From a virus: 52,212 nt of DNA. Under the pieces are notes generated by a model that saw nothing but the letters and a program-made list of their open reading frames with translations, had not been told where the DNA came from and made no database searches. Position numbers and translations under genes: made by a program. The stretch is from positions 1 to 52,212 of the IMG/VR virus record IMGVR_UViG_3300049830_000248; one strand, written 5' to 3'. This document shows, piece after piece, positions 1 through 52,212 of the stretch. How positions within the stretch are numbered: the stretch's first letter is position 1; each line of letters opens with the position of its first letter.

Positions 1-5
1 TGACG

Positions 6-176
6 ATGAATAAAAATCCCGCAGCCGTGGCGCTCGGCAAAATGAAAAGTGCGGCCAAGTCGAAAGCTGCCCGCGAGAACGGCAAGCTCGGCGGTCGCCC
101 GCGCAAACCAAAGCGTGTGGCTCGGAGTGCTAACGCCGCGCTCTGCGAAGTGGCGGACAAGACGCGACCGAATTAA
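6..176 (+). CDS. small basic GKLGGRPRK-type protein, cassette gene
   Basis: 56-residue, Lys/Arg/Ala-rich protein with the motif ARENGKLGGRPRKPKR, often seen in short phage and mobile-element proteins and possibly nucleic-acid binding; function unknown. Its last 14 or so residues (NAALCEVADKTRPN) are encoded by the attC-like palindrome that follows, so the native C-terminus was probably replaced or extended when the cassette was joined. The same tail pattern (SEVAD) occurs in the unrelated protein at 6110-6430, which ends in a related palindrome. The cassette's left border is off the contig. Confidence 0.55.
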   Translation: MNKNPAAVALGKMKSAAKSKAARENGKLGGRPRKPKRVARSANAALCEVADKTRPN

Positions 177-220
177 CCGATGCCGTGGCCCGCCACTTTC
201 GCAGCAGCAAGTGGTTAGAG
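129..220. repeat. attC-like site E1 (integron recombination site)
   Basis: Left core GCTAACG (129-135), left arm 145-156 (GCGAAGTGGCGG), right arm 190-202 pairing with it except for one extra unpaired base, right core GTTAGAG (214-220). The arm sequence and part of the loop (ATTAACC.ATG) are shared, in reverse orientation, with the palindrome at 6063-6158, so the two sites are related. Confidence 0.75.
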
Positions 221-241
221 GCGAATAATCGTAATACAAAT

Positions 242-574
242 ATGAAAAATGCAATCGAATGGTTCAAAGAAAAAGGCTTTGACGCTAACTGGAATGGAAA
301 AATAAAGCTGAAGGACATCATCGCTCTGCAAAATGACGCTGCGAAATCCGCGCTGATGACGGCGCAAATGGTCGCGTCCGAAGTCATCCAAAAAGAGGCT
401 ACGAAGTATGCCGTCATCGGCGACCCGATACCCGGCCCACCGGCTGAAATGTCACTGTCAGGACTCCAATACAAAGTCACGAGTGCAATCGTGGCGATGG
501 CGGACAAACTGGAATACATACCTGAAGCCTCTAACGTAGAACTGAGCGACCGGCGCGAGAACAATCAACGATGA
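242..574 (+). CDS. hypothetical cassette protein (110 aa)
   Basis: Starts 28 bases after the GTTAGAG core with an A-rich leader (aatacaaatATG) and no Shine-Dalgarno. MKNAIEWFKEKGFDANWNGKI opens a soluble, mostly helical protein with no family I recognise. The cassette is bounded by complementary cores GTTAGAGGC (214-222) and GCCTCTAAC (527-535). The C-terminal residues from NVELSDRR onward read into the E2 palindrome, so they are probably not part of the ancestral protein. Confidence 0.65.
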   Translation: MKNAIEWFKEKGFDANWNGKIKLKDIIALQNDAAKSALMTAQMVASEVIQKEATKYAVIGDPIPGPPAEMSLSGLQYKVTSAIVAMADKLEYIPEASNVELSDRRENNQR

Positions 575-639
575 CCGCTACTCTACCAGCATCCGAATTG
601 CAGAGGCCCGCGCCGGTTCGCTCCAGTGATTTGTTAGCG
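529..639. repeat. attC-like site E2
   Basis: Left core CTCTAACG (529-536), left arm 544-557 (GAGCGACCGGCGCG), right arm 609-623 pairing perfectly except for one extra base, right core GTTAGCG (633-639). The loop contains the ATG of the next reading frame (571). Confidence 0.78.
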
Positions 640-1380
640 CGTCCGGCCCGAATCGTTGCGCTGTCTGGCGGGAAGGACTCAACGGCGATGGCACTCGGAC
701 TCGCGGAGCGTGAACCAGACGAATACGAATACTGCATCACGCCGACCGGACGTGAACTGCCGGTGATGGTGGAACACTGGAAGCGCCTCGAATGTCTGCT
801 CGGCAAACCGCTCATCAAAGTGCCCGCGCCGACGCTGGTGGAACTCATCATCAAATACAAAACGCTCCCGAATCACCGGATGCGCTACTGCACGCGCCAA
901 GTGAAAATCGAGCCGTTCCAAATCTACGCGGCAGGCAAAGCTCCGGCGGTGTGCTATGTAGGAATCCGCGCCGACGAAGCGGACTCACGCGAAGGAACTG
1001 ACCACACGGGCATCGTCGGCGTGACGCAAGACTGCCCGCTCGTGCGATGGGGCTGGGACATAAACGACGTGAGGAACTACCTCCGCAAGCGCGGTGTGGA
1101 AGTGCCGGAGCGAACAGACTGTGACATGTGCTACCACCAGCAACTCGGCGAATGGTGGCGGCTGTGGCGCGACCACAAAGACCGCTGGCAGGAAATCGAG
1201 GCACTCGAAGCGTGGACAGGGCACACGCTGCGGAGCGAGCAACGCGACACCTGGCCGGCGAGCCTGAAAGAACTCGCCAAGAAATTTGAGGCTGGATACG
1301 TGCCGAAAGGAGCAGCGCAAACAAACCTCCGCCTCGACGTGTCCGAGCGGTCAACAATGTGCGCGTGGTGTGCTCGATGA
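571..1380 (+). CDS. PAPS-reductase-like PP-loop (adenine nucleotide alpha-hydrolase) protein
   Basis: PP-loop nucleotide-binding motif SGGKDST at about residues 33-39, followed by the pattern TPTGRELPVM of phage phosphoadenosine-phosphosulfate-reductase-like proteins. Two Cys pairs near the C-terminus (CDMC about 189-192; CAWC at the very end) suggest a metal or Fe-S site. Family members act in sulfate activation, tRNA or DNA thiolation, or other nucleotide chemistry; the substrate here cannot be told. An ATG at 571 lies inside the attC loop. A TTG at 631, directly at the right core, is an alternative start that removes the attC-encoded N-terminus. Cassette cores: GTTAGCGCG (633-641) and CGCGCTAAC (1401-1409). 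Confidence 0.8.
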   Translation: MTATLPASELQRPAPVRSSDLLARPARIVALSGGKDSTAMALGLAEREPDEYEYCITPTGRELPVMVEHWKRLECLLGKPLIKVPAPTLVELIIKYKTLPNHRMRYCTRQVKIEPFQIYAAGKAPAVCYVGIRADEADSREGTDHTGIVGVTQDCPLVRWGWDINDVRNYLRKRGVEVPERTDCDMCYHQQLGEWWRLWRDHKDRWQEIEALEAWTGHTLRSEQRDTWPASLKELAKKFEAGYVPKGAAQTNLRLDVSERSTMCAWCAR

Positions 1381-1400
1381 ACACGAGACGCAACATCCGG

Positions 1401-1528
1401 CGCGCTAACGCAAAGGCCAGCAACGGCGGGGGACAATGAACGATGAACGCAGAACCGATATTGGAATTGGAACAAGGTGACGAACGCACGGCGCACCCGC
1501 CGTTGGCTGCGCCGCTTGGTTCTGCATC
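1401..1528. repeat. attC-like site E3
   Basis: Left core CGCGCTAACG (1401-1410), left arm 1419-1430 (AGCAACGGCGGG), right arm 1496-1508 with one extra base, right core GTTCTGCATC (1519-1528). A 20-codon frame (1377-1439) and an ATG at 1443 lie in it but look incidental. Confidence 0.75.
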
Positions 1529-1547
1529 CCCGCGTGACAAGCACATC

Positions 1548-1970
1548 ATGTCAGTAATGGGAAGCTCGAAAGACATGACGTGGCCGACACCGACGGAATG
1601 GTTCGACTACCTCGACCTCGAATTTGGCTTCACGCTCGATCCGTGCTGCGAACACGCGACGGCGAAATGCGCGAAGCACTACACGCCAGCCGAAGATGGA
1701 CTGGCGCAACCGTGGAAAGATGAACGTGTCTTTATGAATCCGCCGTATGGCCGCGAAATCGGCGCGTGGATGAAGAAGGCATACGAGGAAGCCCGCGACA
1801 ACGGCGCACTGGTGGTGTGCTTCGTGCCTGCTCGCGTGGATACAAACTGGTGGCATAGCTACGCTGCGAAAGCCACAGAAGTCCGCTATCCAAAAGGGCG
1901 CGTGAAAAACCCGGACGGCGTGGCATGGCCGTTCCCAATCGCGGTGATAATCTACCGCCCGCGACTGTGA
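1548..1970 (+). CDS. phage N6-adenine DNA methyltransferase (Dam family)
   Basis: About 140 residues. TWPTPTEWFDYLDLEFGFTLDPCCE and the catalytic FMNPPYGREIG identify the phage-type Dam family, whose members methylate adenine N6 in DNA, usually for protection from restriction or to mark phage DNA. The upstream ATG at 1443 would prepend 35 residues read from the E3 palindrome. ATG 1548 was chosen because it lies 29 bases after the right core, like other cassette genes, and begins just before the family's domain. Cassette cores: GTTCTGCATC (1519-1528) and GATGCAGAAC (1969-1978). Confidence 0.88.
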   Translation: MSVMGSSKDMTWPTPTEWFDYLDLEFGFTLDPCCEHATAKCAKHYTPAEDGLAQPWKDERVFMNPPYGREIGAWMKKAYEEARDNGALVVCFVPARVDTNWWHSYAAKATEVRYPKGRVKNPDGVAWPFPIAVIIYRPRL

Positions 1971-2072
1971 TGCAGAACGCTCGTGCTGACCTACCCCGCA
2001 TTGACGATGTGGCCCGCGAAAGCGGATGTGAGGGGAACAATAGGGGTTAGGTCCGGCACGTTGTTAGCAGGC
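1969..2072. repeat. attC-like site E4
   Basis: Left core GATGCAGAACG (1969-1979), left arm 1982-1997 (CGTGCTGACCTACCCC), right arm 2043-2060 with two extra bases and one mismatch, right core GTTAGCAGGC (2063-2072). Confidence 0.72.
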
Positions 2073-2083
2073 GAATTTGAGAT

Positions 2084-2236
2084 ATGAAACAAAAACCGAA
2101 AAGCAAAAAGGCCGACTCTTTGAAGTGGGCAATCGGCCAGCTTGAAAAGATGGCGGCGGAAGAAACAGACCCAAAACTGAAAGCTCTCTGGCTGCGAAGT
2201 GCGGCTGCTGGCTACGAACGAAAGGCAAGGCAATGA
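2084..2236 (+). CDS. small hypothetical cassette protein (50 aa)
   Basis: Short helical, charged protein (KKADSLKWAIGQLEKMAAEE) starting 12 bases after the right core of E4. It ends in an ATGA overlap with the next gene, so the cassette at 2063-2577 carries two translationally coupled genes. Function unknown. Confidence 0.6.
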   Translation: MKQKPKSKKADSLKWAIGQLEKMAAEETDPKLKALWLRSAAAGYERKARQ

Positions 2237-2604
2237 CCGAAGAACTGAAATCAAACACTCCGAAAACGGACGCATACGACAAAGACAACTGGCGTGGCAA
2301 CTCCGCTGGCTGGCGCGAGCGATCAATCACCATCGAGGACGCTCTGGACTTCGCACGCAAGCAAGAATACTCGGCGGCGTGCGCCGAAAAGCTCCTGCTC
2401 GAAATCGGCCATGCGATAGCCGAACGGCTCGAAAAAATCCGCATAGACTCCGACAAAGAACCGCACCGCCGAAACGCAGAGTGCGACATCAAAACCGAAG
2501 ATATGCTGGATATGATAACGCGCAGCATCCACACCTATAAACTCACTCAATCCGACGACGTGGCCGAGCCTGCTAACGTGAAGTCCTGCGGTGGCGGGGA
2601 ATAA
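2233..2604 (+). CDS. hypothetical cassette protein (123 aa)
   Basis: Charged soluble protein (about residues 1-113 with WRERSITIEDALDFARKQE and a helical tail), similar in style to small phage early proteins that I cannot assign. The last 9 residues (NVKSCGGGE) are encoded by the E5 palindrome. Coupled to the 50-residue gene upstream by an ATGA overlap. The opposite strand carries only a Ser-rich shadow frame. Confidence 0.65.
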   Translation: MTEELKSNTPKTDAYDKDNWRGNSAGWRERSITIEDALDFARKQEYSAACAEKLLLEIGHAIAERLEKIRIDSDKEPHRRNAECDIKTEDMLDMITRSIHTYKLTQSDDVAEPANVKSCGGGE

Positions 2605-2696
2605 ATCTATGAGCGCAAAATCACCAGTTGAAATTGAGGCGAGCGGCGAGCGTAAAAAAATCACGCCATCCGCAGCGACGCTTGGTTCGGCAGCTC
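2568..2696. repeat. attC-like site E5; point where the contig end rejoins
   Basis: Left core GCCTGCTAACG (2568-2578), left arm 2586-2596 (CTGCGGTGGCG), right arm 2664-2675 with one extra base, right core GTTCGGC (2685-2691). 2574-2700 is identical to 52086-52212; the two copies diverge leftward exactly at the AAC core. Confidence 0.8.
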
Positions 2697-2941
2697 CCAC
2701 GTTCTGCGCTGGCTGTGACTGGTGGAAACCGCGTAGAACGGCAGACGGCATGACCGGACTCGTCGGGTGGTGTGATGCCTTCAAGAAAACAACCAATGCG
2801 ACTCACGGTTCGCGCTGCACTGCGTGGACTCGCTGGCAAGAGCCGCCGAACGATGAAGCCAGCGAACCCGGAACTATGACTCACGACAACCCAAAACCCG
2901 AAGCGGCGAACCCAAGGCGTAATCCGGGTTCGCTGCGCTGA
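2609..2941 (+). CDS. Cys/Trp-rich hypothetical cassette protein
   Basis: 110 residues starting at the ATG in the loop of E5 (leader AATAAATCTATGAGCG, identical over 16 bases to the portal gene start on the other strand at 12806). After an attC-encoded N-terminus comes CAGCDWWKPRR...GWCDAF...SRCTAW, spaced Cys/Trp that suggest a small metal-binding fold. There is no other ATG before residue 50 or so. The C-terminus again reads into the next palindrome (E6). Cassette cores: GTTCGGCAGCTC (2685-2696) and its near-complement at 2840-2851. Confidence 0.6.
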   Translation: MSAKSPVEIEASGERKKITPSAATLGSAAPTFCAGCDWWKPRRTADGMTGLVGWCDAFKKTTNATHGSRCTAWTRWQEPPNDEASEPGTMTHDNPKPEAANPRRNPGSLR

Positions 2942-2955
2942 CTGGTTAAGCATCC
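2840..2955. repeat. attC-like site E6
   Basis: Left core GCCGCCGAACG, perfect 12-base arms 2861-2872 (AGCGAACCCGGA) and 2923-2934, extended outward with one extra base at 2936 on the right side. Right core GTTAAGCATCC (2945-2955), whose reverse GCTTAAC fits the classical RYYYAAC consensus. Confidence 0.75.
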
Positions 2956-2972
2956 CGAACAACAACACAAAT

Positions 2973-3155
2973 ATGAAACTGAAAAAAATAATGATACTGG
3001 AACTGACCGAACTCGAAACCGATGCAATCAAAACGCTCATCGGCAGAACGTCCGAGAAGGCGCGACTCGACCTCGGCCTGACTCTCGCTCAATCCAACAC
3101 TGTGTCTGACATCTACGACCACCTTCCGAATCTGGATGATGGCAAGGATGCTTAA
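2973..3155 (+). CDS. small hypothetical protein in the intI-proximal cassette
   Basis: 60 residues (MKLKKIMILELTELETDAIK...), leader acacaaatATG. Helical and acidic; no family recognised. Its TAA stop lies inside the core GCTTAAC. The unit is flanked by an 11-base inverted pair, GTTAAGCATCC (2945-2955) and GGATGCTTAAC (3146-3156), which mark the cassette nearest intI. Confidence 0.6.
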   Translation: MKLKKIMILELTELETDAIKTLIGRTSEKARLDLGLTLAQSNTVSDIYDHLPNLDDGKDA

Positions 3156-3182
3156 CAATCATTAACAAACTTCTGTTCGTAT
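3146..3182 (-). other. candidate attI-like site next to intI
   Basis: Between the last cassette and the intI start there is a core site (GTTAAGC on the minus strand, matching GTTRRRY) but no partner hairpin. A further GTTAAT lies 7-10 bases upstream on that strand. A hairpin-less core beside a divergent intI is the expected place and form of attI. The assignment is inferred from position and absence of a palindrome. Confidence 0.45.
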
Positions 3183-4151
3183 ATGAGAATTGAAACCGCC
3201 TTGGAAACATTAAGGGATGTGATTCGCAGGAAACATTTCTCTTTGGCTACGGAACGGAGTTATCTCATGTGGGTGTCACGTTATGCGAGATTTGTTTCTG
3301 ACCTTGCCCGCAGGAATTGCCCGCAGGGATTGCCCGCCCAAAAGTTAGAGGCGTTTCTTACACAACTCGCCCGTCAGGACGTTTCAGCCTCAACTCAAAA
3401 TCAGGCGTTCAATGCGCTAATCTTTTTTTACCGCGAAGTCGTCAAGGTCGAGGTTGGAAACGTAAATGCGTTGCGCGCCAAGAAGCCTGTGCAATTGAGA
3501 TTCGCGCCCGAATTTTCAGAGGTAAAAAAACTGCTCGAATCAGTTCAGGACATTGGAGGCTATCCTACCCGCCTGATTGTGAAATTAATTTACGGTTGCG
3601 GCCTGCGCGTTTCCGAGCCGCTGAATCTTCGCGTGAAGGACGTTTTGCTGGAAGATTCCAAGCTGGTGATTTGCGGAGCGAAGGGCGGAAAAGATCGGTT
3701 TATTTCAATCCCCTGCTCGCTGGCTGGAGAACTGAAAACGCAACTGGCTTTTGCAAAATCGGTTCAGGCGCAAGACCGCACCAATTTGGTTCCAGTTGCT
3801 TTGCCTGGATTGCTGGCGAAGAAATACCCGCATTGGCAGTTCTCTCCGAAATGGGCGTTTTTGTTTCCTGCCCGGACGACTTGCCAACATCCGCGCGAAG
3901 GATTTAATGTCCGATGGCGTTGCCACGAGGCGAATGTTCAGCGGGCGGTTCGGGCAGCGGCGCGGCCTTTGGGTCTGGACATCACGCCGCACCACCTACG
4001 CCACGCCTACGCGACCCACTGTTTGAACAGTGGGCACAATCCGCGAGCGATTCAACAGGCGATGGGTCACAGCCAGCTAGAGACAACGATGGGCTACCTC
4101 CATGCCGAAGCCATGAGCGTTAAATCACCTTTGGAATTTCAAACTCACTAA
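3183..4151 (+). CDS. intI: integron-type tyrosine recombinase (IntI family)
   Basis: 322 residues. N-terminal SAM-like core-binding domain (about 1-95, with TQNQAFNALIFFYREV typical of IntI). Catalytic domain from about 105: R142 in YGCGLRVSE, K170 in GGKDR, H270/R273 in TPHHLRHAYATH, H296 in MGHSQLETT, nucleophile Y305 in GYLH. The integron-specific insertion is present at about 206-230 (VALPGLLAKKYPHWQFSPKWAFLFPA), and the C-terminus has VKSPLEF as in IntI. These features separate it from ordinary phage or XerC/D integrases. IntI joins attI and single-stranded folded attC sites to insert, excise and shuffle cassettes. It lies immediately downstream of the cassette array, on the same strand as the cassette genes, and 4 bases before the RecE-like gene. 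Confidence 0.92.
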   Translation: MRIETALETLRDVIRRKHFSLATERSYLMWVSRYARFVSDLARRNCPQGLPAQKLEAFLTQLARQDVSASTQNQAFNALIFFYREVVKVEVGNVNALRAKKPVQLRFAPEFSEVKKLLESVQDIGGYPTRLIVKLIYGCGLRVSEPLNLRVKDVLLEDSKLVICGAKGGKDRFISIPCSLAGELKTQLAFAKSVQAQDRTNLVPVALPGLLAKKYPHWQFSPKWAFLFPARTTCQHPREGFNVRWRCHEANVQRAVRAAARPLGLDITPHHLRHAYATHCLNSGHNPRAIQQAMGHSQLETTMGYLHAEAMSVKSPLEFQTH

Positions 4152-4155
4152 AACC

Positions 4156-5241
4156 ATGTTCAAAAACGCAAAAATCTTCTCCATCGGCGCGAATCCAGAA
4201 GAATACCACAGCCAGCCAGCCGAGCGCGGTCAATCCAACTATGTGATGTCGTCATCCGCGCTGCGGATGTTCGCGCTCTGTCCGTCGAAGTGGCGGAATG
4301 GATGGGAGCTTCCGCGCTCCGCGTCCCTCGAATACGGGAGCTTGTTTGATACGCTCATGCTGACGCCGGAGCAGTTTGACACGCGTTACGCGTTGATTCC
4401 AGCCACTTACGATTCGGCGGCGATGAAGTGTCCGAAGTGCGGCTCGGTGTCCGAGGCTGCATCCTGCCGCGCCTGCAAGACCGAGCGCGAGCCGACGACG
4501 ATTCAAAAGCCGTGGAACGGTAATTCGGACACCTGCCGGGCGTGGCTGGACGCGCAGAAGGCCACTGGACGCGAGGTAGTGTCCGCTGACGCCCTGGGGG
4601 ACGCGCAGAGCGCGGCAAAGAGGCTTCTGGCCGACGACCAGCTTAAACGGTTCATCGAAGCCTGTGACAAGCAGGTTTGGCTGACTGCTGACTGGCACGA
4701 CGAAAACACCGGCATCATCGTGCCGGTCAAATGCCTTCTGGACTTGGCGGGAAAGGCAGACAGCGCGTTTGCGAAATCCCTTGGTGATCTGAAAACCACG
4801 AAGAACGCCGCTCCTTTGGCGTGGGCGAAGTGGGCGCATTACGCTGGTTACGAGATTCAGGCCGCTTGGAACACCGACATATTTGTAGCCGCATCGCAGC
4901 GCGAGATTACGAACTTTTGCTTTGTTCTGTCCGAAAGCGAATTCCCTTTTGAAACTGGCCGGCGCTTCATGTCACAAGACCTTCTTGAGCCGGGGATGGA
5001 CACGGGCGACATCGCATCGGGGCGGCGGCAATACCTTGGGATGCTCAAAGGGTATTGCAAATGTGTCAAAAACAACTTCTGGCCGGGATTTGACGACACT
5101 GACGAGGCGAGCGCGGACGGTTGGACGCTGGTTTTACCCGAACCTTACGCAGAACAACGCCGGATGTTCGCTCCGAAATTCAATTATGAGACGGGCGACA
5201 CGGAGGAGGCGGAAGAATCCGACCCAGATTTAATCCCTTAA
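4156..5241 (+). CDS. RecE-like PD-(D/E)XK exonuclease
   Basis: 361 residues. SALRMFALCPSKWRNG, EYGSLFDTLMLTPEQF and the catalytic pattern LLDLAG...GDLKTTKNA (about residues 194-217) fit phage RecE/exonuclease VIII-like nucleases (DUF3799 group), which resect double-strand ends for a single-strand annealing protein. The expected partner is the ERF gene at 49086-49958, upstream in the circular map; the integron separates the two. Residues about 95-112 hold a four-Cys cluster (CPKCG...CRAC), a zinc ribbon that looks inserted between the first conserved block and the nuclease core. Confidence 0.82.
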   Translation: MFKNAKIFSIGANPEEYHSQPAERGQSNYVMSSSALRMFALCPSKWRNGWELPRSASLEYGSLFDTLMLTPEQFDTRYALIPATYDSAAMKCPKCGSVSEAASCRACKTEREPTTIQKPWNGNSDTCRAWLDAQKATGREVVSADALGDAQSAAKRLLADDQLKRFIEACDKQVWLTADWHDENTGIIVPVKCLLDLAGKADSAFAKSLGDLKTTKNAAPLAWAKWAHYAGYEIQAAWNTDIFVAASQREITNFCFVLSESEFPFETGRRFMSQDLLEPGMDTGDIASGRRQYLGMLKGYCKCVKNNFWPGFDDTDEASADGWTLVLPEPYAEQRRMFAPKFNYETGDTEEAEESDPDLIP

Positions 5242-5400
5242 TTCCTGACCTGCCAGCCTGACCGTCTCGCGCATGGCCTCAAACCACTCTTTAGGCGTTC
5301 GGACGCGGGAAACGGGCGTTGGCGAGCGGCGCGGAGCCTTCTGACGCGGTTCGGGCTGGTCGTCATCCAGCCACCAGAACCGTTTATTTCCTGATTTCAT
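5230..5400 (-). CDS. small hypothetical protein (56 aa)
   Basis: MKSGNKRFWWLDDDQPEP... with a basic Pro/Arg-rich centre and a helical end (EWFEAMRETVRLAGQEL). Convergent with the RecE-like gene, overlapping it by 12 bases. Last gene of the leftward early cluster. No family recognised. Confidence 0.5.
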   Translation of the reverse strand: MKSGNKRFWWLDDDQPEPRQKAPRRSPTPVSRVRTPKEWFEAMRETVRLAGQELRD

Positions 5401-5411
5401 AATTTTATGGG

Positions 5412-5744: not shown

Positions 5745-5763
5745 TTTGTTAGTCGTTGGAGTG
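5745..5763 (+). other. cassette junction core without hairpin (secondary insertion site)
   Basis: Core GTTGGAGTG (5755-5763) is complementary to CACTCCAAC (6063-6071), bounding a cassette of about 400 bases. The flank TTTTTGTTAGTC before the core resembles the intI-proximal flank (minus strand TTTGTTAATGATT before GTTAAGC). No palindrome is present, as expected for an attI-like or secondary site. Confidence 0.45.
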
Positions 5764-6048
5764 CCGGTCGGCACGTTCAGTTTCTTCGATGCTGCTCGGC
5801 GACGGAGCGGAGATAGCTTCCGCGTTCTCCCTGCCCACAGTTTCCGATGGGCTAGTTCGCTGTTCCGCCGCCGAGAAGATTTTCGGAGTGTGATTTCGGA
5901 CATAGATGCCGAGCGCGTCAGGGTAGTAGCACCCGTCGCGGTCACACTTGTTGATTAGCTCTTTCATCAGGTCGGGCAGCCAGCAGGCCGGAGCTTCTAC
6001 GATCTGCCGCTGTAGTTCTTCGATTGTTATTTTCATATTTATTTTCAT
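5749..6048 (-). CDS. hypothetical cassette protein (99 aa)
   Basis: Begins MKINMKITIEELQRQIVEAPACWLPDLMKELINKC; helical with scattered Cys. The start lies in an AT-rich stretch with two in-frame ATGs (6048 and 6036). The Pro/Ser/Glu-rich C-terminal third looks unstructured. The gene fills the single cassette between the junction at 5755 and the palindrome at 6063-6158. Function unknown. Confidence 0.55.
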   Translation of the reverse strand: MKINMKITIEELQRQIVEAPACWLPDLMKELINKCDRDGCYYPDALGIYVRNHTPKIFSAAEQRTSPSETVGRENAEAISAPSPSSIEETERADRHSND

Positions 6049-6062
6049 ATTTATTTTCCGGT

Positions 6063-6158
6063 CACTCCAACCAATCGCCGAAGCGAAAGTGGCGGGCGAT
6101 GGCCATTGGTTAATCCGAACGTCTCCCGTCCGCCACTTCGCTTGGCTCGGCGTTGATC
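6063..6158. repeat. attC-like site Ex (second locus)
   Basis: Core CACTCCAAC (6063-6071), arm 6083-6095 (GCGAAAGTGGCGG, with the extra base), arm 6130-6141, core CGTTGATC (6151-6158). It is a reverse-orientation relative of E1, with the same arms and a similar loop. Orientation relative to the adjacent genes (minus strand) is the same as in the main array. Confidence 0.7.
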
Positions 6159-6430
6159 TTGAGCGTGTCGAGGTTGCGCCAAGCCGTCTTGCCGTTGCGC
6201 TCGTTCTTCACCAGCGCGCGGGCAACCCCATACGCAAGCTTGAAATCCGTAATGGTTACGAGGGTTTCCTCAACCGCGCCAGCATACAGCAGGGCGGTTG
6301 AGCCGATGAGTTTCTGCGATTCGATTGTGGTCATAAGTCGCCCACCGCGAATCTGGTCGTTGATGTGGTTCGCAATCAACTCGGCGTTTGGCCCGATGAT
6401 CTCTATATTGCTTCCAAGTATCGTTTTCAT
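6110..6430 (-). CDS. hypothetical early protein with attC-encoded C-terminus
   Basis: 106 residues, MKTILGSNIEIIGPNAELIANHINDQIRGG...; the middle (LIGSTALLYAGAVEETLVTITDFKLAYG) resembles a small phage nucleoid or host-interaction protein but no family is recognised. The final residues (NAEPSEVADGRRSD) are read from the palindrome Ex, so a cassette insertion probably replaced the original stop. A TTGACA promoter lies upstream. Confidence 0.6.
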   Translation of the reverse strand: MKTILGSNIEIIGPNAELIANHINDQIRGGRLMTTIESQKLIGSTALLYAGAVEETLVTITDFKLAYGVARALVKNERNGKTAWRNLDTLKINAEPSEVADGRRSD

Positions 6431-6478
6431 ATCAATTCCATTGGTTAATTGTTGATTCCAGTTTTGCCTAGCACCGAT

Positions 6479-6507
6479 AAACTACCATTGTGCCGAATAG
6501 GTGTCAA
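6479..6507 (-). promoter_or_regulatory. sigma70-type promoter for leftward early genes
   Basis: On the minus strand TTGACA (6507-6502), 17-base spacer, TAGTTT (6484-6479), about 50 bases upstream of the ATG at 6430. The -35 matches the consensus fully; the -10 is weaker. Confidence 0.6.
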
Positions 6508-6534
6508 CGTCTATTTCATCTTTTCTTTATCCCC

Positions 6535-6563
6535 TTGACTTTTCCAGCCGCTACGCCGATTTT
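6535..6563 (+). promoter_or_regulatory. possible sigma70 promoter for rightward gene
   Basis: TTGACT (6535-6540), 17-base spacer, GATTTT (6558-6563); the predicted start point is only a few bases before ATG 6573, so a nearly leaderless transcript would result. Confidence 0.4.
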
Positions 6564-6572
6564 CCCGCTGAT

Positions 6573-6965
6573 ATGCCGCTATTTACCGTTGAAAACGCCG
6601 CCGAACTTGGACGCAAAGGAGCTATTCGCCGCAAGGAGCTAATCGAGCAGCGGAAGGCCGAAGCCAAGCAAGCCGAATTTGAACGCGCCACACCGGAGCC
6701 AGAAGCGGCGATTGAGCGGACTAAACGGCAACTGTCGAAGGTGGATGACATGATAGATGCCGCACTGGAGGAGGATGACGCCGACCTGTTTTTACGCCTC
6801 TCTGCCGCCAAAGAGCGCCTCTGGAAGCTGGTTTCCCCGACCGCTGGCGTCCTGAAACAGCCTCGTGGTCGTCAAGATCGGCTCCGGCCTGCAATCGCGC
6901 CGATGTCCGAGCAGCAGCCAGCGACACCACAAGCGGAAACTTCGATTTCTGCCAACGCCTCTTGA
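6573..6965 (+). CDS. coiled-coil small protein, possible small terminase or regulator
   Basis: 130 residues from ATG 6573 (MPLFTVENAAELGRKGAIRRKEL). An N-terminal AAELGRKG segment is followed by a highly charged coiled coil (about 20-60) and a Gln/Pro/Ala-rich tail. The start pattern resembles N-terminal DNA-binding segments of phage small terminases or Nu1-like proteins, but that is only resemblance. A GTG at 6501 would extend it across the promoter. Confidence 0.5.
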   Translation: MPLFTVENAAELGRKGAIRRKELIEQRKAEAKQAEFERATPEPEAAIERTKRQLSKVDDMIDAALEEDDADLFLRLSAAKERLWKLVSPTAGVLKQPRGRQDRLRPAIAPMSEQQPATPQAETSISANAS

Positions 6966-13133: not shown

Positions 13134-15890
13134 TCAATGCTTCAAAAGTCCCGCTTGAATGGCATCGTCCCATTCTTTCACTTCCTTGTCAAAATAATCC
13201 TCATCATCTGCATTGTTGGATTTCACGTCGCGTCCGATGCGTTCAATCTTGAATCCCATGCGCCTTGCGCCTTCGATTGCGATGGCAAACCAGTCGTAAA
13301 GGTCGGGGCTTTTCTTTACCCGCTCTTTCATGTCATCCTTCGATTCGACTTCAACCTTGTTGCCGGCAACAACTTTGAACAACCGCAACTGACCCTCCTG
13401 CGCGACATTGGCCGGCAGGTTTCGCACTTGGTTTGACTCAATCGCCTCACGGGTAGAGAACCACATTTCCGTGACGAACTTTGAATAATGCTCGTCACAC
13501 CGTTTCAGCCGTTTTTCACCCTCCTTTTCGTCAACAAACAAGTCGAACCGGACTGGCCGCGTTGTTGTCCTCGCACCGGAGTCAACCGGCTGCGGGCAGC
13601 TGGCTCCAAAAACCTTTGCAAAAGAGTTTCCAAGAGTCCCGCGCCCAAACGAGTCGTAAAAAATGTTTTCAGGCTTCAAGTCCAAGCGTTCGGACTGCTG
13701 CTTGATGAATTCTGCAATCTGATCCTCTGCATCCAGGCTGGAATTAAGCCGGATTGGAATTATCTCTGGTGTCCCAACGGAAAAAATCAAATTGCCGTCC
13801 TTGTCCTCGCCAAACTCGCACTCGCCACCAACGCAACGGTCGCCGCCACCGTATGCTGGATCAAGCGCATAAATTTTTGTTCGTGGAGTCCCTTTCCAAA
13901 TCGCGGATTTGAAAGCGCCATGCCGTTCACACAGTCCGATGGTGATGACGCGGTTTGAAACCATGCCGCGCGACGGCTTGCCGATGCCCTGCTGATAAAC
14001 CTGCCACGAGTCGGCCCCATAGGTGTCAATCAGCTTTTGAACGTAGCCGGAATTTGCCAAAAACGGGAAACTATCCTTCGGCTCGTCGTTGTTCGGCGTG
14101 TCGCGCCCGTCGTAGGCCACGCAAAAGGCGTTGAGCCAGCGCGAACGCCAAACTTGCGTCTTGCCGTTGTCAATGAAAGTGTCCCAACCTCCTGGCGGTT
14201 CGCTGGCGACACAAAGCGGGTCGGAAATGTCGGTCGGATTTCCGGCCATTACCCCTTTGAACCGCGAGTTTGCCATCCAGTTTGTGTAACCGTCCAACAG
14301 CGAAGGCTGCATCACCGCGCAGTTGTGGACTAAAAAACCATTTACGGAGTAGCTTGGATGTCCGGCAACCGCGAGATTATAGACCGAAGTTCTGCCTTCA
14401 CAATCTGCGGCGTCAGAATGACTCGCTTGTTCGCATATCTCAACACTGTCCACCCAAGCGAAGCTAGAAAATTCGTTTTCTTCGCGTCTTGCTCCTGCCG
14501 CGCAATCGTGTTGTGTGATGCTCCGTCTAATTCCACCGCCAGTTTCTTTTTCGGAAATGCAACATCCACTTTGTAGTGCGTCGGGTAGCCGCTCCCCGCT
14601 GGCATTTTCGTTTTGACTGGAAAATTGTTCTTGGCTCGCGGAGAGAATGTTTTGAGGAGAATCAATTCTGCCTTCGTCGGCCCTGTTCCATTTCCGCCGC
14701 GAATAGTAGGCTTGTGACCCGCCGCCTTCAACCGCCTGCTTATATTGCGATTGATTTCCAACTTCTGTTTGTCCGTCAGTGAAGCGCGGAAATCCTGAAA
14801 CCCTTGCTCCATCTTCTCCCGCATATCCGCATAACGCTCCGGCTGCTCCGCAAACAGCTTCTTGCGAGCTTTCTGAATCTTTTGGGAACGCTCCGGCGTG
14901 TAAAGTTTCTTGCGGTAGTCCGGTTGCGCTGCGAACCACTTCCCTTTGCAGGACAGCCCGCAGAACATCCGATTGGGCGGGATTAAAACCCCACAGCGGC
15001 GACATTTCTTTTCCTGACAAGATTTGATTTGCTTCATGCGCCGTTATCATAACACAACCCTGGTCAAGCTCAAACGCTTTTTTCCATCCGAATTGTGTCA
15101 GGACAGGATGCTCTGGTGTGCAGACGATTTCTTTTCCATTGCTGATTTTTATTCTGACAAGATTTCTGGCGGCGCGCTTCATAGTTGCAATTACCCTTGA
15201 CGCACCAACGGCAGAAAAAACCAAGTCGCCAGTTCGGATGGATTCAATCGGCCTTTTTCCGTGTGGCGTATCAACCAAAGTCCCCGCAGGGAAACACTCG
15301 TCTCCGTAGTGTTTAAGGATGCCATCATTTTTCCCCGGCGAACTTGGAGCCTTCACGCCCTGAAACTTCGACATCCCGACAAATCGCCCGCCGCTGACGC
15401 AGGGGACGCACACGATTCCTCGGTCTATCTGCCGCGCAAATTCACCATCCTCATCAATGTCATCGCTGACAATCGCCATCTTGGATTCAAGAATGTGGCC
15501 GGGCAACCACGGAAAGCGGGAGCGGCCACGGTTGAACAGCCATTTGATGCCTCGCCCCCAGATGCGGAGTTCGAGCGACCGGATGTCAGTCGAAGAAATC
15601 AAAGCCAGAGAAGTTTCGGGAAAACACCAGAAATCAATCAGCGCATGGCATGACATCAAATAAGTCTTTGAAGCGTTCGCGCAGCCAAGAATCACCGTCA
15701 CCTGATTTTCTACGATACCTGCCATGCCCAACTCAAACCAGCGGTGTTGCTTGTCCTCCGGCCAAAGCAGGGAGTGTGCTTTCAGGTAGTGCTGGACTGT
15801 GGACGGCTTGCCATAGTCGCGCCGAATCATGGCGAATTCAATTTCCAGCGGGTCAGCACCATCCGGCCAGTTCAGATTATATTTCTGCAC
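13134..15890 (-). CDS. terL: terminase large subunit interrupted by an intein
   Basis: 918 residues as translated, 593 after splicing. ATPase: atypical Walker A ILGCANASKT (about 67-76, Ser where Gly is usual before Lys); Walker B ending GDE at 196-198, where the intein starts; coupling motif VMAGNP after the intein. Nuclease domain: LDPAYGGGDR, YDSFGRGTLG and a late Asp (SPDLYDWFAIA). It cuts and packages phage DNA. The intein lies exactly behind the catalytic Walker B acidic pair, so the enzyme is inactive until splicing. Confidence 0.88.
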   Translation of the reverse strand: MQKYNLNWPDGADPLEIEFAMIRRDYGKPSTVQHYLKAHSLLWPEDKQHRWFELGMAGIVENQVTVILGCANASKTYLMSCHALIDFWCFPETSLALISSTDIRSLELRIWGRGIKWLFNRGRSRFPWLPGHILESKMAIVSDDIDEDGEFARQIDRGIVCVPCVSGGRFVGMSKFQGVKAPSSPGKNDGILKHYGDECFPAGTLVDTPHGKRPIESIRTGDLVFSAVGASRVIATMKRAARNLVRIKISNGKEIVCTPEHPVLTQFGWKKAFELDQGCVMITAHEANQILSGKEMSPLWGFNPAQSDVLRAVLQREVVRSATGLPQETLHAGAFPKDSESSQEAVCGAAGALCGYAGEDGARVSGFPRFTDGQTEVGNQSQYKQAVEGGGSQAYYSRRKWNRADEGRIDSPQNILSASQEQFSSQNENASGERLPDALQSGCCISEKETGGGIRRSITQHDCAAGARREENEFSSFAWVDSVEICEQASHSDAADCEGRTSVYNLAVAGHPSYSVNGFLVHNCAVMQPSLLDGYTNWMANSRFKGVMAGNPTDISDPLCVASEPPGGWDTFIDNGKTQVWRSRWLNAFCVAYDGRDTPNNDEPKDSFPFLANSGYVQKLIDTYGADSWQVYQQGIGKPSRGMVSNRVITIGLCERHGAFKSAIWKGTPRTKIYALDPAYGGGDRCVGGECEFGEDKDGNLIFSVGTPEIIPIRLNSSLDAEDQIAEFIKQQSERLDLKPENIFYDSFGRGTLGNSFAKVFGASCPQPVDSGARTTTRPVRFDLFVDEKEGEKRLKRCDEHYSKFVTEMWFSTREAIESNQVRNLPANVAQEGQLRLFKVVAGNKVEVESKDDMKERVKKSPDLYDWFAIAIEGARRMGFKIERIGRDVKSNNADDEDYFDKEVKEWDDAIQAGLLKH
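14322..15296 (-). mobile_element. intein in terminase (325 aa)
   Basis: N-terminal splicing block CFPAGTLVDTPHGKRPIESI with nucleophile C199; block B VCTPEHPVL with T/H; C-terminal block SVYNLAVAGHPSYSVNGFLVHN followed by the +1 Cys of the C-extein. All splicing residues (Cys1, TxxH, penultimate His, final Asn, +1 Cys) are present. The middle (about 230 residues) has no recognisable LAGLIDADG motif in this frame; instead the same DNA encodes a nuclease in another frame (14342-15037). Confidence 0.9.
14342..15037 (-). CDS. Vsr/DUF559-like homing endonuclease nested out of frame in the intein
   Basis: 231 residues on the same strand as the terminase, shifted frame. N-terminal zinc finger CRRCGVLIPPNRMFCGLSCKG, a basic helical region, then a DUF559/very-short-patch-repair-like nuclease core: YKVDVAFPKKKLAVELDG, RQEQDAKKTNFLASLGWTVLRY. 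Such nucleases cut an intein-free allele to drive homing. The start ATG lies after splicing block B; the stop falls in the C-terminal splicing block, so about 230 codons are read in two frames. No strong Shine-Dalgarno precedes it. Confidence 0.8.
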   Translation of the reverse strand: MKQIKSCQEKKCRRCGVLIPPNRMFCGLSCKGKWFAAQPDYRKKLYTPERSQKIQKARKKLFAEQPERYADMREKMEQGFQDFRASLTDKQKLEINRNISRRLKAAGHKPTIRGGNGTGPTKAELILLKTFSPRAKNNFPVKTKMPAGSGYPTHYKVDVAFPKKKLAVELDGASHNTIARQEQDAKKTNFLASLGWTVLRYANKRVILTPQIVKAELRSIISRLPDIQATP

Positions 15891-49085: not shown

Positions 49086-49958
49086 ATGCGTATGAACAAA
49101 CCAGCCGAACAACCATCCCTCGAAATCGCCCACCTTGAAACCGGCGCGCTGGAAAAACAATCCGCGCAAACCGAAACTGAACGGATGTTCGCCATGATTG
49201 AGCGCATGGCAACCGACCCGCAGGTTGACCCGGCAAAACTCCGAGAGATTCTGTCCGTCAAACAGGCATGGGAAGCCGACGAGTCCCGAAAGGCTTTTGC
49301 CTCGGCGATGGCAAAGTTTCAATCGCTCTGCCCAATCATTGAAAAGCTGGATACGGCGAACGGGCGCGGTTACGCGCGTCTTGATCGGATTCACCGCGAG
49401 ACTCGTCCGCTTTTGCGCGATTGCGGGCTTTGGTTTTCTTGGACGGTTTGCGAGGAACGCGATGGCGGCTTGATTCACCTTGAAGGCATCTTGGGTCATT
49501 CCAGCGGGCATCAAGTCCCATGCCGCCAGTTGATTTCACTCCCCGACAAGATTTCCGGCACGAACGCCGCGCAACGTGCCGGAAGCGGACAGACATACGC
49601 GAAGCGTTACGGGGAGCTTGCAGCATTGAATGTCGTCACAGGCGATGACAACGACGGCAATTCGCGCAAGGAGCGTCCGGTAGGGCCGGCAGCGCGTCCG
49701 GCGGCTAACCCGTCCGCGCCCTCTGCGCCACAAAAAGAAACTTTTGAAGAATTGAAGAAAAAGCTGTCGAAAGAGCTTTGGGACTTACTCAAGCCGACCG
49801 TCAGCCAAGTCGCCGGCTGGAATCCAAAAACGTGGGACGGCCACAATCAGTGGCTATTCCGCGAGGACATCTTGGACGGCGGAATTCCAGAAGTCATGCC
49901 CGATCTGAAACCGGAGCGGATTGCGGCGGTTATCGGGCTGGTGAAGGAGCGGATTTAA
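49086..49958 (+). CDS. erf: ERF-family single-strand annealing protein
   Basis: 290 residues. Core AFASAMAKFQSLCPIIEK...GRGYARLDRIHRETRPLLRDCGLWFSW, followed by ISLPDKISGTNAAQRAGSGQTYAKRYGELAALNVVTGDDND, the ERF signature. It anneals complementary single strands in phage recombination, normally with an exonuclease such as the RecE-like protein at 4156-5241. Its TAA stop lies in TTTAACG, the outermost core-like site of the cassette array. ATG 49092 is an alternative start. Confidence 0.9.
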   Translation: MRMNKPAEQPSLEIAHLETGALEKQSAQTETERMFAMIERMATDPQVDPAKLREILSVKQAWEADESRKAFASAMAKFQSLCPIIEKLDTANGRGYARLDRIHRETRPLLRDCGLWFSWTVCEERDGGLIHLEGILGHSSGHQVPCRQLISLPDKISGTNAAQRAGSGQTYAKRYGELAALNVVTGDDNDGNSRKERPVGPAARPAANPSAPSAPQKETFEELKKKLSKELWDLLKPTVSQVAGWNPKTWDGHNQWLFREDILDGGIPEVMPDLKPERIAAVIGLVKERI

Positions 49959-50029
49959 CGACCCAAGCTGACGACGTGAATTGAAACCTGCGGCTCAATC
50001 GGCCCACTCCGATTGTATTGTTAGCGAGC
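49951..50029. repeat. outer boundary of the cassette array (degenerate attC or attI-like)
   Basis: Cores TTTAACG (49954-49960; GTTAAAT on the other strand fits GTTRRRY) and GTTAGCGAGC (50020-50029), but the arms between them do not pair as in the other sites. A separate small hairpin CAATCGG/CCGATTG lies at about 49996-50015. Either the terminal, decayed attC or an attI-like site. Confidence 0.5.
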
Positions 50030-50036
50030 AACGACT

Positions 50037-50372
50037 ATGAAAAAGACCATAAAAAAAGAAGTTCGGTTCTGCGACAAATGCGGAAAGGAATACTCATATC
50101 CAGACGCCTGCATGAAGTGCGGGACGGAAATGTGCTACGAGTGCAAACAGAAACACGGGAAGTCCTACAACCACGCCATCTACCTTCAAGGCAGTGGAGA
50201 CGGCTTCTACTGCAATCCGTGCGATGCGAAACTGACCGCCGCCGGAACTGACAAACGCCACAACGCCTACCGCGCCATCAAATCCCTGAAAGATGAACTG
50301 GAAGCGTGGCACACCGACTTCAAAAAACGCCAAGAGGCAGCCGAGAACGCGGTGAAGGCTCTTGCTCGCTAA
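50037..50372 (+). CDS. zinc-ribbon cassette protein
   Basis: 111 residues: FCDKCGKEY, CMKCGTEMCYECKQKHG, FYCNPCDAK, several Cx2C pairs binding one or two zincs, then a helical C-terminus (AIKSLKDELEAWHTDFKKRQE). Start 8 bases after GTTAGCGAGC; TAA stop inside the closing core GCTCGCTAAC (50364-50373), complementary over 10 bases. Confidence 0.7.
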   Translation: MKKTIKKEVRFCDKCGKEYSYPDACMKCGTEMCYECKQKHGKSYNHAIYLQGSGDGFYCNPCDAKLTAAGTDKRHNAYRAIKSLKDELEAWHTDFKKRQEAAENAVKALAR

Positions 50373-50473
50373 CGCAGACTTGAGTGGCGCGAAATAAAAT
50401 CTATGACAACCCCTGACGTTTCCGAAAAACTGAATGCGCTAATCGCGTCCACTCCAAGGACGGGTTCGGCATC
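50364..50473. repeat. attC-like site Eb
   Basis: Left core GCTCGCTAACG, left arm 50382-50392 (GAGTGGCGCGA), right arm 50443-50454 with one extra base, right core GTTCGGCATC (50464-50473). The loop carries the leader AAATAAAATCTATG of the next gene. Confidence 0.78.
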
Positions 50474-50645
50474 ACCAGAGCGCCTCCAACATCTGGGCAC
50501 AGTCCTGCGAATCAGGCTCAATCGCATCGCTGAAACCAGCGACACAAATAAAATCTGGCTCGAAGCCCGCGAATCTCTTGAAGTCTTGCGCCAACTCGAA
50601 GCTGTGATGCCGAACGCTCCGCATGAGCGAACCCCGGACAAGTGA
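50403..50645 (+). CDS. hypothetical cassette protein (80 aa)
   Basis: MTTPDVSEKLNALIASTPRTGSA..., helical (LRIRLNRIAETSDTNKIWLEARESLEVLRQLE). Starts inside the Eb palindrome. Cores GTTCGGCATC (50464-50473) and GATGCCGAAC (50606-50615) match over 10 bases. The C-terminus reads past the closing core. No family recognised. Confidence 0.55.
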   Translation: MTTPDVSEKLNALIASTPRTGSASPERLQHLGTVLRIRLNRIAETSDTNKIWLEARESLEVLRQLEAVMPNAPHERTPDK

Positions 50646-50673
50646 CGTATGAAAACCAAAAACTCTCTCGCAA

Positions 50674-50898
50674 ATGCCACCTACACCGATGAACGAACCT
50701 ATCTGCATAAAATGCAAAACACCAATGTCGCCAGTCCCGAAGCAAACGGGCATCTTGGCAAACGCGACATTCACAGTCACGGGCTTCCGGTGCGAAAACT
50801 GCGGTCACTGGAATAATCTCAAACGCAGAAAACAGAAGCAGCCCAACACCAAGCTCACAGATGCCGGGACTGTGAGCGTGAAATTGGATGAGACGTAA
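50674..50898 (+). CDS. zinc-ribbon cassette protein (74 aa)
   Basis: CIKCKTPM and CENCGHWNN, two CxxC pairs about 32 residues apart, a classical small zinc ribbon, then a Lys/Gln-rich tail. ATG 50674 or 50689 may be the start. The opening side of this cassette lacks a recognisable GTT core, so the palindrome after 50606 seems decayed. An overlapping frame (50649-50816) looks incidental. Confidence 0.6.
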   Translation: MPPTPMNEPICIKCKTPMSPVPKQTGILANATFTVTGFRCENCGHWNNLKRRKQKQPNTKLTDAGTVSVKLDET

Positions 50899-50931
50899 TC
50901 CCGGCATTCTGTGCAGCTTTTCGTTAGCGTG
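50841..50931. repeat. attC-like site Ed
   Basis: Core GCCCAAC (50841-50847), left arm 50851-50869, right arm 50899-50919 pairing over 19 positions with two extra bases on the right side, right core GTTAGCGTG (50923-50931). The left core is followed by A rather than the usual G. Confidence 0.7.
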
Positions 50932-50959
50932 TCGCGCCAAAGAATCTCGAAAAAAAATG

Positions 50960-50993
50960 TTGCGTAGCATGGTAGAAAGATGTAGCATGGTAG
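50960..50993 (+). promoter_or_regulatory. promoter with paired 12-base repeats before a cassette gene
   Basis: GTAGCATGGTAG occurs at 50964-50975 and 50982-50993. TTGCGT (50960-50965), 17-base spacer and TAGCAT (50983-50988) form a weak sigma70 promoter that overlaps both repeats, 9 bases from the ATG at 50998. The repeats look like operator half-sites or a duplicated promoter element. Confidence 0.4.
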
Positions 50994-50997
50994 GACT

Positions 50998-51285
50998 ATG
51001 ACAAAATTCTGTTACAAGAAACTATCGGAAAACGAACTGCACGAAATGGCGTTACTGCTATCTCGTGCGATTCACAACGAACAGGTCGGCATCGAAACTG
51101 AAAGCCCGGACGGTAAAAATCCCGGCTTCATCACGAAACAGCTATTCGGTGTGTGTGACGGCATGGAAGATACTACCATCCTCATCCAGCCCGAAGGCTT
51201 GAAGTGGCTGTGGGTGCGATATATGGGTGCGAAAGGCGGAAAAGCCAAGGCCGCGAAAACAAAGAAGCGTGACCGCGCACGCTAA
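50998..51285 (+). CDS. hypothetical cassette protein (95 aa)
   Basis: MTKFCYKKLSENELHEMALLLSRAIHNEQ..., compact alpha/beta with a basic Ala/Lys tail (KGGKAKAAKTKKRDRAR). TAA stop inside the core CACGCTAAC (51278-51286), complementary to GTTAGCGTG (50923-50931). Probably has its own promoter. Function unknown. Confidence 0.6.
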   Translation: MTKFCYKKLSENELHEMALLLSRAIHNEQVGIETESPDGKNPGFITKQLFGVCDGMEDTTILIQPEGLKWLWVRYMGAKGGKAKAAKTKKRDRAR

Positions 51286-51385
51286 CGACAAGCTCACGCC
51301 ATGACTACCGCGCCAACAGCGTCCGCCTCGCCGAAAACCGTCAACGCGGTAGTCATTGAGCGTGCAGCGACTGGTTCGCCATTTC
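51278..51385. repeat. attC-like site Ee
   Basis: Left core CACGCTAACG, perfect 12-base arms ATGACTACCGCG (51301-51312) and 51345-51356, outer GCTCA/TGAGC pairing, right core GTTCGCCATTTC (51374-51385). Nearly identical over 60 bases to site Ef at 51682-51789. The four unpaired bases on the left are an exception to the asymmetry of the other sites. Confidence 0.7.
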
Positions 51386-51711
51386 GGGTGCGACTCTCTC
51401 GCAAGCGCGGATGGAGGATGCCGGAAAATACTGTGGTCGTGTCGAAGCCGAGCGTGTGGGGAAATCCATTCTGGAAAGGTTTCGGCTGCCGGATGAGCGC
51501 GGCCTGGAGCTATCGCGTCCACCTGCAAGTGGCGCTCGTGCAAATACGCCTCGGCCTGCCATGCGATGAACCACACTTCGAGCGCATCGCAAAACGGCTG
51601 CCCGAACTGCGCGGGAAGAATCTCGCCTGCTGGTGTCCACTCGATATGCCGGACTGCTACTGCCACGCGGGCGTGCTGCTAGAAATGGCGAACGAAAAGC
51701 TGACCGCATGA
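51301..51711 (+). CDS. DUF4326 protein (cassette gene)
   Basis: 136 residues if ATG 51301 (inside the palindrome) is used; GTG 51388, 14 bases past the core, gives about 107 residues and fits the family better. RLSRKRGWRMPENTVVVSKPSVWGNPF and the late LRGKNLACWCPLDMPDCYCHAGVLLE are diagnostic of DUF4326, a phage-common family of unknown activity with conserved Cys/His. Cores GTTCGCCATTTC and GAAATGGCGAAC (51682-51693) match over 12 bases. Confidence 0.82.
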   Translation: MTTAPTASASPKTVNAVVIERAATGSPFRVRLSRKRGWRMPENTVVVSKPSVWGNPFWKGFGCRMSAAWSYRVHLQVALVQIRLGLPCDEPHFERIAKRLPELRGKNLACWCPLDMPDCYCHAGVLLEMANEKLTA

Positions 51712-51789
51712 CTACCGCGCCAACAACGCCTCGCCTCGCCGAAAACCGTGAACGCGGTAGTCATTGCGTGCAGTGCTGGGTTATGCCAC
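51682..51789. repeat. attC-like site Ef
   Basis: Left core GAAATGGCGAACG, arms GC-ATGACTACCGCG (about 51706-51719) and its complement at about 51752-51766 with one extra base on the right, right core GTTATGCCAC (51780-51789). Confidence 0.72.
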
Positions 51790-51806
51790 GTTAACGAAAA
51801 ATCAAT

Positions 51807-52088
51807 ATGAAAACCGGAGAAAAAGTAGTCTGCGTAAAAGGCTGGTCAATGCCGTAAGCCAACGATGCAAGTCACAAGCCAATCGTCGGAAATGTGTATG
51901 TGGTAGCCGGTGTCCATGAGTGCTACGAGACGATGGGAGGTCTGCATCTGCTCGGAATAGAAGTGCCGCACCACTGCTGCCGATGCGGTGGCGCTGCGGC
52001 GTGGAGATCCTACCACTTCCGAAAGCTGGATGAAATGAAACTCGAAGCAAAACAAAACCAACAACAGCCACAGACGCAAGTGGCATAA
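51807..52088 (+). pseudogene. cassette gene interrupted by an in-frame TAA
   Basis: ATG 51807 opens MKTGEKVVCVKGWSMP, a TAA follows at 51855-51857, and the same frame then continues to 52088: ANDASHKPIVGNVYVVAGVHECYE...HHCCRCGGAA.... The joined sequence reads like a common small phage protein (VCVxx...P..GxVYVV.G), so this is a disrupted gene, or the stop is read through. The final TAA is in the core GTGGCATAAC (52080-52089), which matches GTTATGCCAC. Confidence 0.6.
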
Positions 52089-52212
52089 CGTGAAGTCCTG
52101 CGGTGGCGGGGAATAAATCTATGAGCGCAAAATCACCAGTTGAAATTGAGGCGAGCGGCGAGCGTAAAAAAATCACGCCATCCGCAGCGACGCTTGGTTC
52201 GGCAGCTCCCAC
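52086..52212 (+). repeat. 127-base direct repeat of 2574-2700 at the contig end
   Basis: Exact copy of the E5 palindrome and part of the following cassette. The length, 127, equals a commonly used assembler k-mer, so this is most likely the graph overlap joining the contig end back to 2701. Left of it the two copies differ from the base before the TAACG core. Confidence 0.9.
52121..52212 (+). CDS. partial copy of the Cys/Trp-rich cassette gene
   Basis: First 30 codons of the gene at 2609-2941, cut by the contig end. Read through the circular join it is the same gene, not a second one, unless the cassette is really duplicated. Confidence 0.55.
   Translation, partial: MSAKSPVEIEASGERKKITPSAATLGSAAP

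Follow-up and report, generated by a model that had tools for sequence, protein, structure and literature searches.

Does a tailed phage own an integron, or does it merely carry one that belongs to a bacterium? The question is raised by a complete IMG/VR virus record of 52,212 bases, analyzed here in full as the window, in which an integron integrase gene (intI) lies beside an array of short cassettes. The original prediction, made from the sequence alone, placed this integron inside a tailed phage, and we agree: IntI, attI, attC sites, and cassettes share the contig with a TerL gene interrupted by an intein and with genes for a tail protein, DnaB helicase, ERF, and a PDDEXK (DUF3799) nuclease. 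The terminase and structural genes identify the contig as a tailed phage (Caudoviricetes). TerL was also found in 12 of the 27 relatives examined. Within the intein stretch of the window's TerL (13134-15890, - strand), another reading frame (14342-15037, - strand) accommodates an ORF of 231 aa that matches the DUF559 endonuclease domain (PF04480, 4.9e-13) and may be a homing endonuclease overprinted on the intein.

The intI product belongs to the tyrosine recombinases: it contains the insertion that is specific to IntI as well as the RKHRHY residues. As had been claimed, R142, K170, H270, R273, H296, and Y305 are all present; across 24 aligned viral sequences these are invariant except for K170, which is nearly so, and the insertion is conserved in the alignment of viral IntIs. 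The protein scores 256.2 bits with the NCBIfam profile TIGR02249, compared to 114.4 for XerC and 105.9 for XerD. This value is slightly under the curated TIGR02249 cut-off of 265, which may be expected of a divergent IntI lineage. The best PDB profile match is the integron integrase 2a3v (1.1e-69), followed by a XerC-like chain (4.4e-38).

Beside intI, the predicted dozen or so core-bounded units correspond to about 11 cassettes, delimited by GTT/AAC cores of complementary sequence and by attC hairpins with bulges; they occupy 1-3156 and 49957-52212 and flank the contig break (Table 1). In each unit, the opening bases GTT... are complementary to the closing ...AAC, and imperfect hairpins separate one unit from the next. 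Complementary cores pair at 50020/50373, 50923/51286, 51374/51693, 51780/52089, 214/535, 633/1409, 1519/1978, 2063/2577, and 2945/3156, and the two pairs named in advance (51374-51385/51682-51693 and 2063-2072/2568-2577) lie exactly where they had been placed. When complementary cores of at least 8 nt were counted per ~3.5 kb, the array regions held 5 and 6 GTT-anchored pairs, versus 0.5 and 0.6 in shuffles (maxima 2 and 3); three control regions held 0-3.

Table 1. Features of the integron and its borders in the window (R1, covariance model for attC; paired tokens are opening and closing cores)
Feature	Position	Strand	Evidence or remark
ERF single-strand annealing protein gene, upstream border of the array	49086..49958	+	Pfam PF04404, 3.6e-14
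Most distal cassette (ORF 50037-50372)	50020..50373	+	Cores GTTAGCGAGCAA/TTGCTCGCTAAC
attC, holds start of ORF 50403-50645	50367..50470	+	R1, 36.5 bits
attC	50841..50929	+	R1, 49.4 bits
Cassette (ORF 50998-51285)	50923..51286	+	Cores GTTAGCGTG/CACGCTAAC
attC	51280..51380	+	R1, 29.5 bits; 96% identical to L038 3470-3566
Cassette gene DUF4326, ORF opens in attC	51301..51711	+	Pfam PF14216, 1.1e-18; cores 51374/51693
attC, weak	51687..51786	+	R1, 15.2 bits, E 0.0033 (2.3 kb stretch, filters off)
Cassette	51780..52089	+	Cores GTTATGCCAC/GTGGCATAAC
attC, duplicate of 2571-2691, truncated by contig end	52083..52203	+	R1, 37 bits; 127-nt identity
attC	128..220	+	R1, 50.8 bits
Cassette	214..535	+	Cores GTTAGAGGC/GCCTCTAAC
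attC, internal ATG 571 opens PAPS-reductase-like gene	529..639	+	R1, 45.2 bits
Cassette gene, PAPS-reductase-like	571..1380	+	Pfam PF01507, 1.9e-7; cores 633-641/1401-1409
attC, internal ATG 1443 opens Dam gene	1403..1525	+	R1, 36.5 bits; ORF spans attC through core
Cassette gene, DNA N6-adenine methyltransferase (Dam)	1443..1970	+	Pfam PF05869, 2.4e-24; cores 1519-1528/1969-1978
attC	1972..2069	+	R1, 29.7 bits
Cassette (ORF 2233-2604)	2063..2577	+	Cores GTTAGCAGGC/GCCTGCTAAC
attC of cassette with ORF 2609-2941	2571..2691	+	R1, 34.1 bits; 127-nt exact repeat 2574-2700
attC (bottom strand = +) beside attI-proximal cassette	2845..2951	+	R1, 50.7 bits; cores 2945-2955/3146-3156
attI-proximal cassette, ORF 2973-3155	2945..3156	+	Cores GTTAAGCATCC/GGATGCTTAAC
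attI, conserved block between last cassette core (TTAAC) and intI start	3154..3182	-	Conservation and natural junctions
intI, integron integrase, 322 aa	3183..4151	+	TIGR02249 profile, conserved residues, clade placement
PDDEXK (DUF3799) nuclease gene, directly downstream of intI	4156..5241	+	Pfam PF12684, 2.5e-7
Isolated attC beyond intI, opposite orientation	6065..6158	-	R1, 49.6 bits

The attC sites were characterized using a covariance model (R1) built from 20 attC sites of viral relatives. In its alignment, 17 of 21 pairs have changed on both sides, and covariation is 0.405, versus 0.130 when shuffled and at most 0.104 when slid. On the 52-kb window, R1 bears out the covariance check suggested with the original prediction: it detects ten + strand sites at E<0.01, all in the two array halves, while the phage backbone making up the rest of the window gives no match except 6065-6158 (-). 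R1 also recognizes the bottom strands of the class 1 aadA1 and aadA2 attCs (E 5e-10 and 1e-9), and the viral sites are therefore attC in the established sense, with complementary R cores, paired arms, and one-sided extrahelical bases. Rfam at gathering thresholds returned no match in the window, nor did an exact search of IMG/VR for the window's duplicated attC. The isolated site at 6065-6158 (-) resembles 128-220 and has - strand ORFs nearby (5749-6048 and 6110-6430). In one relative (L034), four attC matches at 579-1674 (-), ~7 kb upstream of intI, make up a further array of opposite orientation.

At the other end of the recombination reaction, a conserved block, which reads ...AATGATTG|TTAAGC on the - strand, separates intI from the last cassette core, 27 nt away. 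Most relatives with enough sequence have the array directly upstream of intI, with the last core ~30-60 nt from its start. Since in these relatives the core AAC is followed by a constant A(A/G)TGATT..GCAAC block on the intI-proximal side while the opposite side varies, we identify the block as attI. It adjoins the 5' end of intI, as in ordinary integrons, and natural array junctions cut at it; the crossover would fall at G|TT. With intI present, the locus is not a CALIN, i.e., an attC cluster without intI. Blocks resembling attI (AACAATGATTAGGCGAC, AACACTGATTCAACC) also occur away from intI, at 5275-5408 and 6114-6247 of L045 and at 14994-15283 of L041, the last accompanied by an exact copy of an array cassette. 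These are possible secondary insertion sites.

In bacterial cassettes, attC lies at the 3' end of the gene, which is on the attC top strand. This arrangement, usual in integrons albeit not strictly defining, is not what we found in the viruses, where the attC bottom strand encodes the cassette genes, which point away from attC. On the viral + strand, the extrahelical bases are in the 3' half at 52 sites versus 7 (p 1.4e-9), as on aadA bottom strands, and R1 matches lie on the intI strand in nearly all cases in the first set of viral records and in 57 of 57 cases in 28 viral records not used for training; the + strand is thus the attC bottom strand. Further evidence for this polarity comes from exactly duplicated units, which run from AAC to AAC with attC at the left. 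When gene direction was scored by the longest ORF, 99 viral attCs (n=130) had a gene reading away and 11 a gene reading toward them, the latter looking canonical, versus 6 away and 27 toward in bacteria and plasmids. The window alone, which is a weak test, gave 5 away, 2 toward, and 3 undecided. Might the genes nevertheless be canonical ones on the - strand, with + strand ORFs arising by chance? Long ORFs are found on both strands of GC-rich DNA, and a greedy count in the window gave 500 aa on the + and 482 aa on the - strand. Yet Pfam matches 15 of 20 + strand cassette ORFs and none of the 10 longest - strand ORFs tested, and the Dam, PAPS-reductase-like, and DUF4326 genes of the window are all on the + strand, which makes this explanation hardly credible. 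Nor is a viral cassette a bacterial cassette turned round, because IntI would insert both in the same attC orientation.

The reversed polarity bears on expression. In 65 of the 99 away-reading viral cases, the longest frame opens inside attC. In several methyltransferase cassettes the conserved domain begins directly past the attC core, which makes initiation at start codons within attC likely. Given the gene direction, a Pc promoter at attI is unlikely. Since the array is placed between the ERF and PDDEXK genes, cassettes and intI are most likely cotranscribed from upstream phage promoters.

How did phages come by this module? A first scan of IMG/VR yielded 46 relatives and a second, overlapping scan 95 matches. 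A tree had been proposed with the original prediction: among 77 IntIs, the window falls within an all-viral clade of 23 (support 100/99), which in an enlarged tree becomes a clade of 40, with 39 viral sequences and one Verrucomicrobiota chromosomal sequence (SH-aLRT 100). We considered whether this single bacterial member is a prophage, but reading its surroundings by eye suggested ParA/ParB-type genes and an IS30-like transposase; with its intI frame shortened as well, we treat it as a chromosomal remnant. The attC type and this remnant only suggest Verrucomicrobiota as hosts. In named phages, the closest IntI shares ~40% identity, that of Virus Rctr41k (L150, KX853513) 39.7%, and only one weak attC match was found within the 20.6 kb stretch of Virus Rctr41k that was searched. 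The IntI-like gene of this virus, whose genome comes from a DAMO/AAA enrichment culture, is annotated xerD and is codirectional with its neighbors.

The IntI clade is carried by dissimilar phage backbones, and the window's remaining phage genes are hardly present in IntI relatives. An explanation by shared backbone was dropped on this ground, and the scarcity of common genes argues that very different phages either pass the integron module among themselves or retain it. The same observation weighs on the possibility that the window has recently captured a bacterial chromosomal integron as a passenger; Qi et al. 2023 (PMC9892861) documented such events in prophages of Vibrio and Shewanella. Integrons look common in Verrucomicrobiota, in which 98 of 388 genomes encode IntI relatives and 79 hold attCs matching the viral model, so that a bacterial source is conceivable. 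However, a recent capture fits poorly with a clade of 39 viral sequences and one bacterial sequence, with nearest IntIs at 39% identity in the genome collection (among the matches listed) and 44% in the 388 Verrucomicrobiota genomes, with cassette genes reversed relative to bacterial arrays, and with a module recurring in phages that have almost no other genes in common. We consider it improbable.

The arrays look mobile, as judged from their sequences. Exact unit duplications of 254, 305, 290, and 368 nt occur in L014, L024, L041, and L203, respectively (with one mismatch visible in L014). The duplicated units are whole cassettes, AAC to AAC, including attC at the left, and the second copy directly adjoins attI in two of these phages, L014 and L203. 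Two other phages, L177 and L184, share an identical stretch of 6,996 nt that includes intI and differ by 1,454 nt, corresponding to two cassettes, at AAC|G of attI: in L177 a cassette ending ...AAATCTAAC is joined directly to attI (GATGTTTCTGC...), and in L184 the 1,454 nt lie between. The contig of a third phage, L178, which is 97.5% identical, starts exactly at the AAC|G attI junction. In the window, the last 127 nt are an exact repeat of 2574-2700 starting at core TAAC, which gives one cassette two different left neighbors. Assemblers commonly use a k-mer length of 127 nt, so the window end and the L177/L184 pair look like assembly-graph branches, reflecting either repeated cassettes or arrangements that coexist. 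Array differences come solely from assembled contigs, those of the relatives being metagenomic apart from a few that may stem from isolate records. Families of attC are shared at 95-96% identity between different phages and across IntI clades too (window/L038, window/L013, and L012/L021); in 50367-50470, the first 70 nt from the core are 96% identical in L013. The DUF4326 gene seemed to have a 96% match in L038, but the similarity turned out to be confined to attC. In L217, a stretch of about intI length is present twice (2557-3479 and 5851-6773, 92% identical), one copy lying over the intI match.

Short cassettes moving as units are in line with site-specific recombination by IntI, which the natural junctions would reflect. 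Alternatively, the system may be a relic with an inactive IntI, the array differences being due to homologous recombination between repeated attCs or to assembly error. Contig ends do often fall in or near arrays (13 versus 4 on the other side, p 0.049), attC families are repeated, and the intI of L006 has an in-frame stop. But the junctions are at the AAC core rather than scattered over the repeats, the units duplicated at 100% identity comprise entire cassettes that in two phages lie beside attI, and the intI reading frames other than that of L006 are open and conserved. A relic is therefore unlikely in our opinion.

What the cassettes carry was foreseen in part by the original prediction, which proposed DNA-modification genes. 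A PAPS-reductase-like protein is encoded in the window and among its relatives alike. The window further has Dam, DUF4326, and small proteins without assignment; the relatives further have DNA methyltransferases of the C5 and N6/N4 types, a GNAT enzyme, and a DNA-modification protein of the Mom family. Although this list is a biased census, because cassette ORFs were chosen for length, the cassettes appear rich in DNA methyltransferase, PAPS-reductase-like, and Mom genes. Evasion of host restriction is the most economical reading of this cargo and most likely its role.

We therefore regard as highly probable the reading that the window harbors a phage-borne integron of mainly viral lineage, with attC-then-gene units and an exchangeable pool of modification genes. 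IntI would act on the + strand of attC (in canonical terms the bottom strand) in its folded form and recombine it with attI beside the intI start, so that cassettes would be gained at and lost from the intI-proximal end, and phage DNA replication could provide the single-stranded DNA for attC folding. The mobile unit would be an attC hairpin followed by a gene (AAC|attC-GTT...gene...AAC|), hence the gene is reversed compared to bacterial cassettes and often starts in its own attC. The exchangeable pool would abound in modification genes, DNA methyltransferases among them, and such viruses may gather and shuffle tools against bacterial defenses. We also favor, with less assurance, a more far-reaching view of a virus-owned integron, in which attC forms the 5' end of the gene and supplies its start codon, phage promoters drive expression, and the cassette pool would be antisense, and hence silent, in bacterial integrons. 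If true, 1) phages, lytic or temperate, own a dedicated gene-acquisition platform that goes beyond a host-derived passenger, 2) phage swapping of anti-restriction genes and the separateness of viral and bacterial cassette pools become testable, and 3) so does the birthplace of cassettes, a long-standing question in integron biology.

How does this integron compare to known systems? Like archaeal integrons (Ghaly et al. 2022, PMC9668308), it represents a separate lineage outside bacterial IntIs, but in the excerpted text of that paper archaeal arrays have a bacterial structure and none is described as viral. With Treponema-type integrons (PMC3607928), it shares codirectional intI and cassette genes; however, Treponema intI is transcribed toward attI, whereas here the intI 5' end faces attI and the reversal, relative to attC, concerns the cassette genes instead. 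Bacterial integrons (class 1, Vibrio, and Verrucomicrobiota) agree with it in the IntI extra domain, in an attI placed at the 5' end of intI, and in attC hairpins with two extrahelical bases, in keeping with cross-detection of class 1 attCs by R1, but their genes are on the attC top strand with attC 3', rather than on the bottom strand with attC 5', often with the start codon. The assumption that integrons are mainly known from chromosomes, transposons, and plasmids needs amending, since phage integrons are precedented: Qi et al. 2023 (PMC9892861) described three complete ones, carried by temperate phages or prophages and derived from integrons of the host or of class 1; they also reported 17 phage CALINs, with virulent phages among the carriers. 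No report of a phage-native integron lineage or of reversed cassettes was found in the open-access journal literature searched. The original prediction missed the reversed genes and the virus-dominated IntI lineage, which are the most unusual traits of the system. The integrons of Qi et al. 2023 (PMC9892861) resemble ours in having IntI, attI, attC, and cassettes, including methyltransferase cassettes, in phage genomes; in contrast to their host or class 1 origin, the present system has a near-wholly viral IntI clade, recurs on many backbones, and has reversed cassette genes.
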